Part shown: piece by piece, positions 3,801-3,899 of the stretch
How the letters are laid out: every line of letters begins with the position of its first letter
Position numbering within the stretch: the first letter of the stretch is position 1
Origin: a bacterium
GTDB lineage: Bacteria; SZUA-79; Acidulodesulfobacterales; Acidulodesulfobacteraceae
Assembly (NCBI GenBank): GCA_021799935.1
Contig: JAJYZM010000084.1
Location: 1-5,438, forward strand
Reading direction: 5' to 3'
DNA: 5,438 nucleotides
The notes under the pieces: model-generated
Databases searched by the model: none
What the model was told of the DNA's origin: nothing
The model's input: only the letters and a program-made list of their open reading frames with translations
Translations under genes and position numbers: made by a program

Positions 3801-3835
3801 GGCGCAAATGGGCGCTTGCGGCAACGACGCCGCAA
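3801..3835 (+). promoter_or_regulatory. Candidate antiterminator and anti-antiterminator region of the nifH leader
   Basis: TTGCGGC (3816-3822) and GCCGCAA (3829-3835) form a 7-bp hairpin with an AACGAC loop. Its 3' arm is also the G+C-rich base of the downstream terminator, so the two hairpins exclude each other. Upstream, CGCAA (3803-3807) can pair with TTGCG (3816-3820) and would free the terminator. The result is a 1:2, 2:3, 3:4 scheme like that of amino-acid attenuators. The pairing is seen directly; a regulatory switch is inferred. Confidence 0.55.
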
Positions 3836-3879
3836 TTAGAGAGATTAGAAGATTCTGCTTCATCCCTTCGTCTCTTTAG
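3808..3879 (+). CDS. Possible 23-codon leader peptide in the nifH attenuator
   Basis: ATG at 3808 opens a 23-codon frame ([13 protein letters not shown] at the start, two Cys codons at positions 4 and 17) ending at TAG 3877-3879. It spans the antiterminator hairpin and most of the terminator hairpin, so a translating ribosome would reshape the fold. The ribosome site is weak (AGG at 3800-3802). No run of one amino-acid codon is present, unlike classic biosynthetic leaders. It may be chance; no homolog is recognised. Confidence 0.25.
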
Positions 3880-3899
3880 TTGCGGCGTTTTTATTTTTT
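3827..3899 (+). terminator. Strong intrinsic terminator inside the nifH leader
   Basis: An 18-bp stem pairs 3827-3844 with 3871-3888, including two G-U pairs and a G+C-rich base (ACGCCGC with GCGGCGT). A second small GAAG/CTTC hairpin (3848-3861) sits in the loop. The 3' arm runs straight into TTTTTATTTTTT (3888-3899). It lies between the sigma54 promoter and the nifH ribosome site and no gene precedes it on this strand. It therefore either attenuates nifH or ends a small RNA of about 143 nt. Confidence 0.8.

Follow-up and report, generated by a model that had tools for sequence, protein, structure and literature searches.

What governs nifH once polymerase has started at a sigma54-type promoter? 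The question is raised by the 5,438-nt stretch of DNA analysed here (the window), from an uncultured bacterium, in which a structured leader lies between such a promoter and nifH. A first-pass annotation had proposed a termination/read-through switch at this position and offered three ways of working it: a riboswitch, a protein-dependent antiterminator, or a ribosome-coupled attenuator. The switch itself is well supported by the sequence and by comparison with relatives; among the three options, the evidence favours a protein-dependent antiterminator of the ANTAR type and speaks against the other two. We conclude with high confidence that the leader would act as an antitermination switch of the ANTAR kind, worked by a REC-ANTAR protein encoded in the nif cluster.

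Gene context of the nifH leader

The features of the window are collected in Table 1. For the part of nifB that lies within the window, the score against TIGR01290 is 263.6 bits, below the cut-off for the full-length protein. Transcription from the sigma54-type promoter would be expected to start near position 3757. A sigma54-type site stands ahead of nifH in the window and in 17 of the 17 closely related loci (L001–L019, see below) that extend that far, and no NifA-type upstream site (TGT-N10-ACA) was found in 3459–3935.

Table 1. Features of the window; genes are given in their order along the sequence
Feature	Position	Strand	Evidence or remark
Nramp-like transporter gene	in window		scores below curated cut-offs
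Fur-family gene	in window
nifV	in window	leftward	score below its cut-off
sigma54-type promoter, TGGCAT-N5-TTGCT (GG-N10-GC)	3731..3746	+	sequence
P1 hairpin, GGCGC[AAAUGG]GCGCU, first hexaloop	3801..3816	+	folding; conserved, covarying
P2 hairpin, UGCGGC[AACGAC]GCCGCA, second hexaloop, antiterminator	3817..3834	+	folding; covariation
Intrinsic terminator, stem 3826–3889, U-rich tract to 3899	3826..3899	+	folding
GGAGG, nifH ribosome-binding site	3923..3927	+	sequence
nifH, the controlled gene	3936..4796	+	TIGR01287, 450.8 bits, over cut-off
nifB, 5′ part only (window ends inside), next gene of the cluster	4814..5438	+	TIGR01290

Three other regions of the window drew attention. Between nifV and nifH, positions 3507–3572 form a near-perfect long inverted repeat whose core AATCTGTCCCC occurs in the window and in 14 other fetched loci, several of them overlapping; this recurrence suggests a repeat dispersed across the lineage, and an Rfam search of the region returned microRNA models only, far below threshold. 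Ahead of the Nramp-like gene (254–320), a sigma70-like promoter (TTGACA-17-TATTAT) overlaps the palindromic ATAATGATTTTTATTATCATTA, which resembles a Fur-type box; parts of this region match 19 of the 30 genomes examined from the phylum, along with the gene tail described next. Positions 34–193 were considered as a structured RNA and rejected on the codon periodicity of their conservation and on an Rfam search that returned nothing in three relatives. They are the end of a protein-coding gene, with a corresponding open frame at 416–1654 of locus L156 that begins with a GMTCEHC motif, presumably a heavy-metal-associated domain. The window copy has an in-frame TGA (110–112) that is absent from the two relatives translated.

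Terminator and hairpins of the leader RNA

Folding confirms a strong terminator between the sigma54-type promoter and nifH. It has a 20-bp stem and a 14-nt loop with a U tract after it, and its ΔG of −33.8 kcal/mol (z −7.9) was reached by none of 200 shuffled sequences; the entire leader (3757–3935) folds at −49.4 kcal/mol (z −4.9), likewise with no shuffle of 200 as stable. The GGAGG of nifH starts 24 nt past the final base of the U tract, the spacing given in the first-pass annotation. A generic terminator scan did not list the terminator because its 14-nt loop exceeds the 3–8 nt range of that scan. Rfam gave 14 matches to the window up to E 5, none of them at its own gathering score. A match to the archaeal sRNA154 at 3830–3895 (E 1.5; 19.8 of 88 bits) was taken as chance, although this RNA is nitrogen-linked.

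The switch had been proposed from four short words able to pair in alternation, and all four are present: CGCAA (3803–3807), TTGCGGC (3816–3822), GCCGCAA (3829–3835) and TTGCGGC (3880–3886). Segments 3 and 4 do lie in the terminator stem, and segments 2 and 3 form the predicted competing hairpin, P2. The pairing suggested for segment 1 (CGCAA with TTGCG) did not hold up: it is not favoured, and the fold gives the P1 hairpin instead. Alone, P2 has a ΔG of −11.9 kcal/mol (z −2.6; five of 200 shuffles as stable), and when folded by itself it widens to 3816–3835. P1 and P2 jointly reach −18.7 kcal/mol (z −2.65; one of 200 shuffles as stable) and are directly adjacent as folded, with a linker of 0 nt. 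The 5′ arm of the terminator takes up the 3′ arm of P2 together with bases 4–6 of its loop, and the terminator and the upstream P2 are mutually exclusive folds. The pair of hexaloop hairpins folded in the window is kept in 13 aligned leaders; in three genomes (G006, G009 and G012) an extra G-C pair in the free fold shrinks the P2 loop to four bases.

Distribution of the leader in relatives

Scanning genome contigs with the partial NifB sequence yielded 33 loci. L001–L019 come from close relatives, among them Candidatus Acididesulfobacter diazotrophicus (L016) and isolate SZUA-79 (L011), and L020–L033 come mostly from Geobacter, Desulfuromonadales or Deltaproteobacteria. The leader is present in 12 of the 17 judgeable close loci and absent in five (L013–L017); L002 and L005 end before the leader position and are left out of this count. 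The leaderless loci keep the promoter and the ribosome-binding site, and from P1 through the U tract their alignment consists mostly of gaps. A covariance model found the leader in 15 of the 30 phylum genomes, once each, at nifH, with E-values of 1.3e-12 or better. All 14 related leaders that were folded have an equivalent terminator stem and T-rich tail.

Beside the 15 strong matches, the model gave 15 weak ones of 16–29 bits. The ten inspected all lie inside open reading frames and were rejected as further ANTAR targets; the other five (L105–L108 and L111) all score below 17 bits. In L020, L021, L022 and L029, matches of 10–16 bits located ∼650 bases upstream of nifB fall inside a leftward open frame and were likewise set aside. 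The search returned one strong target per genome from a model trained on nifH leaders, with 150 candidates scored per genome, and would miss targets whose loops differ or whose linker is long.

Conservation and covariation

In an alignment of 13 leaders, 11 of them distinct, 96.7% of the cells of P1 and P2 are paired, as against 24–50% in slid versions. Two-sided changes occur in four of the 11 pairs of the two hairpins, as many being found in two of 500 shuffles that ignore relatedness; the covariation score was reached by none of the 500, and the number of further pair types did not rise above the shuffles (88 of 500). More telling than these statistics is the triple formed by segments 2, 3 and 4. 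Of 15 leaders, nine have C-G-C at the fourth pair counted from the loop, five have T-A-T and one has T-G-C, and with these triple changes both alternative stems are kept. The fifth pair is looser across the same 15 leaders: G-C-G occurs in seven, A-T-A and G-T-A in two each, and A-T-G and G-T-G in one each, and single leaders with T-T-A and T-T-G break P2 and keep the terminator. In genome G018, two of the seven positions of the terminator stem are open. Compensatory changes and retention of the alternative pairing in relatives had been named as the test of the switch. This test did not refute it, since the leaders found retain both the pairing and its covariation; the whole leader has been lost in one clade of more distant relatives.

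Conservation is centred on the two small hairpins, with no larger core. In the 16 leaders read (the 15 above and that of G005), the P1 loop has A2 and U4 and the P2 loop A2 and G4 without exception. Position 1 is A or G in both loops (14 and two leaders, respectively, for P1; 11 and five for P2). Within the P1 loop (3806–3811 in the window), 13 of the 15 leaders have ATG, GTG or TTG at positions 3–5; this start-like triplet probably just follows from the conserved U4-G5.

A REC-ANTAR protein encoded in the nif cluster

The ANTAR domain (PF03861) occurs in 13 of the 19 genomes of close relatives and, above the cut-off, in 16 of the 30 phylum genomes, one each. The protein of G001 consists of a receiver domain (PF00072) followed by the ANTAR domain, and its best match in the PDB is EutV (E 3e-26). 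In the five leader-bearing clusters read at length (G004, G006, G011, G012 and G018), the REC-ANTAR gene is flanked by a nifX-like gene on one side and two P-II genes (here named nifI1 and nifI2) on the other, and where it shares a contig with nifB, as in G004 and G010, it is ∼8–9 kb downstream. G001 and G019, the closest relatives of the window, both have the gene, and we infer that the genome of the window carries it as well.

The EutV RNA-contact residues R142, K143, K147, K149, E160 and M172 are kept, and in the five proteins tabulated R168 is replaced by Gln and R175 by Gly. Tyr164 is replaced by His in 15 of 16 proteins and by Leu in one (G018), counting a copy that is probably mis-binned (see below). 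Among the Desulfuromonadales ANTAR proteins, Tyr164 is kept in 11 of the 12 aligned, a thirteenth (L154) being left out. No partner kinase gene stands beside the REC-ANTAR gene in the clusters read. HisKA_2, the one kinase family searched for, was rejected as the partner, with no member in any of the 30 phylum genomes.

Joint distribution of leader and ANTAR gene

nifH is present in 22 of the 30 phylum genomes, and the ANTAR gene in 13 of the 15 with a leader. The two exceptions, G007 and G009, are also without a close nifI2 match, so their bins lack this stretch of the cluster. G002, with an ANTAR gene and a nifH at a contig end that leaves its leader unjudgeable, was left out. Six genomes have nifH and no leader (G013–G017 and G020), and five of them are without the ANTAR gene. 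In the sixth, G013, the gene is on a 3.1-kb contig (C145, locus L044) beside a second nifI2, and the nif cluster of G013 itself is without it. This copy and the ANTAR gene of G024 share 99.8% identity, and C145, a nif-cluster fragment in a bin with a different nif cluster, is probably mis-binned. Eight genomes are without nifH; of these, G025 alone carries the ANTAR gene, again flanked by nifX-like and P-II genes, and no leader was found in it. The five leaderless clusters read (G013–G017) have the same gene order minus the ANTAR gene; the nifX-like frame of G016 was not recovered either.

In a nifH tree the six leaderless genomes form one clade (support 97), with the leader-bearing G018 as its sister at weak support (64). 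Because the leaderless genomes form one clade, the leader and the ANTAR gene were probably lost together in a single event; the argument is suggestive, not statistical.

Comparison with published ANTAR systems

Known ANTAR targets have tandem hexaloop hairpins, the second overlapping a terminator, with A1 and G4 in the loops; formation of the terminator is blocked by an ANTAR protein acting as a dimer (PMC3369931 and PMC8934654, in excerpt). A single hexaloop suffices for ANTAR binding; G4 of each loop is needed for EutV action, and Tyr164 of EutV stacks on G4 (PMC8934654, in excerpt). Linkers in eut leaders are 5–12 nt long, and shortening to 3 nt harmed EutV action (PMC3369931, in excerpt), and an actinobacterial survey accepted hairpin linkers of 2–25 nt. 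The leader described here has two hexaloop hairpins, the second lying over the 5′ arm of the terminator, and G4 in P2. In its REC-ANTAR protein, its two hexaloops and the overlap of the second with a terminator it resembles the EutV/EutW system of Enterococcus faecalis. Three features depart from the published description: P1 has U4, where both loops of the EutV/EutW leaders have A1 and G4; no linker separates the hairpins (0 nt, against 5–12 nt); and Tyr164 is replaced. EutV, with its Tyr164, acts on ethanolamine genes, and the protein with His or Leu would act on nif genes.

Geobacter and Pelobacter already provide known or predicted cases of nif genes under ANTAR control, and this leader is a new member. 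Work by Ueki and Lovley in 2010 is said to have identified GnfR as an ANTAR antiterminator and a role for GnfK/GnfR in Geobacter sulfurreducens. As here, GnfK/GnfR includes a nitrogen-fixation response regulator within a sigma54-driven nif system. The first-pass annotation did not recognise a switch of this kind before nifH; precedents on nif genes are gnfR and gnfK, a response regulator and a sensor kinase of nitrogen fixation in G. sulfurreducens (PMC7962754, in excerpt), and the ANTAR targets predicted for Pelobacter carbinolicus, which lie in three transcription units related to nitrogenase (PMC3369931, in excerpt). The likeness to Pelobacter rests on this published description rather than on sequence comparison, and three units there compare with one target found per genome here. 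Sigma54 promoters ahead of ANTAR genes are mentioned in PMC12316311 (in excerpt). Titles and abstracts on ANTAR with nifH or nitrogenase, and on Acididesulfobacter with nif, contained nothing on this leader.

Desulfuromonadales loci share the P2-type hairpin, which overlaps a terminator ahead of nifB or nifH. By eye, a P2-type hexaloop was seen before nifH in four of the four loci scanned among L020–L033 and before nifB in 10 of 11, L027 being the one without; most follow a sigma54-like site and are accompanied by a terminator-like repeat. The 12-base core of P2, GGCAACGACGCC, recurs in several Desulfuromonadales nifB leaders. A strict scan of the 14 loci for two hexaloops plus a terminator found nothing, a simpler scan gave the single P2-type hairpin, and no convincing P1 was seen in these leaders. 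The ANTAR gene is present in 12 of 13 Desulfuromonadales genomes and inside eight of the 14 fetched loci. The proteins share ∼30–36% identity with that of G001, and their genes are placed close to nifB, not in the interval from nifX-like to nifI1.

In L020–L029, nifB has a short leader in which a GGC[AACGAC]GCC-type hexaloop stands ∼30–60 bases before the gene with a sigma54-like site and a terminator-like repeat, apparently without P1; such leaders would fit single-hexaloop ANTAR targets. A strict pairing of U4 with His at position 164 is unsupported: L153 has His, yet an A1/G4 hexaloop lies before nifH of the same genome (L032), and G018 has Leu with U4.

Proposed mechanism and alternatives

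With the nitrogen-fixation activator on, polymerase would initiate at the sigma54 promoter. By default the nascent RNA would fold the 3826–3889 terminator and transcription would stop at about 3890–3899, giving a short RNA of ∼140 nt. An active, presumably phosphorylated, REC-ANTAR protein would bind the hexaloops of P1 and P2 and hold P2 closed; closed P2 would occupy the 5′ arm of the terminator and allow read-through into nifH and the downstream genes, the REC-ANTAR gene itself probably among them, with positive feedback as the result. Sigma54 initiation, default termination and its relief by capture of P2 are suggested by the anatomy of the leader and by precedent. Protein binding, termination and read-through, phosphorylation, the signal, the kinase and co-transcription of the ANTAR gene with nifH are steps that we infer. 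In Pseudomonas aeruginosa the ANTAR antiterminator AmiR is encoded inside the ami operon, and AmiR is held by AmiC and is not phosphorylated. An antiterminator encoded within the operon that it opens, there amidase genes, is what we propose here.

Evidence for the ANTAR reading comes from the exclusive folds with a strong terminator, the tandem hexaloops, the covariation, the occurrence of the leader at nifH in 15 genomes, the invariant G4 of P2, the EutV-like REC-ANTAR gene in the nif cluster, the co-occurrence of leader and gene, and the Desulfuromonadales loci. Against it stand U4 in P1, the zero linker, the replaced Tyr164, the mismatched genomes G007, G009, G013 and G025, the restriction of the joint absence to one clade, the unexceptional number of further pair types, and the missing HisKA_2. 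U4, the zero linker and the replaced Tyr164 might reflect a recognition code that has diverged in this phylum, in which P1 would be read through U4 and P2 through G4, the linkerless hairpins would stack, residue 164 would be His or Leu, and a single target would form a two-key feedback lock; we offer this extension tentatively and regard it as somewhat doubtful.

The strongest competitor, though an unlikely one, is that there is no switch and that a strong 5′ hairpin merely stabilises nifH mRNA or constitutively damps its level. The terminator is indeed far more stable than P2 (−33.8 versus −11.9 kcal/mol), and a sister clade does without both leader and regulator. A simple hairpin does not account for segment 2 changing along with segments 3 and 4, for the invariance of bases 2 and 4 of the P1 loop in 16 of 16 leaders, or for a leader that accompanies the ANTAR gene. 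We consider it very improbable that a ribosome translating a leader peptide picks the hairpin. The start-like triplet in P1 (13 of 15 leaders) opens a 23-codon frame in the window, but the other two leaders have TTA, frame lengths range from 10 to 43 codons, the 16 bases upstream contain no Shine-Dalgarno-like GGAGG, and the peptides have no run of regulatory codons; the leader peptide was rejected on these grounds.

The remaining two ideas carry hardly any weight. One is that an RNA-binding protein other than the ANTAR protein of the cluster opens the antiterminator, for which the departure of P1 from the ANTAR consensus and the absence of HisKA_2 kinases from the 30 genomes could be cited; P2 nevertheless keeps G4, and the nif cluster carries the ANTAR gene, whose distribution is like that of the leader. 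The other, just as improbable, is a riboswitch that binds a metabolite such as glutamine directly: a structured leader that switches through a terminator ahead of a nitrogen gene would suit it, but no Rfam family reaches its gathering score and conservation lies in two small hairpins without a larger core.

Implications

Acidulodesulfobacterales is an order first described from acid mine drainage, and its four bins were confirmed to express nifDKH (PMC6776010, in excerpt). An antitermination switch of the ANTAR kind would place a checkpoint on nitrogenase after initiation, in a lineage active in that setting. The U4/His and G4/Tyr combinations offer a natural contrast for how ANTAR proteins read hexaloops, and the sister clade without leader and regulator provides a comparison group. 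If the diverged code and feedback hold, sigma54 initiation and a self-encoded antiterminator would together form a two-key, positive-feedback lock on nitrogenase.
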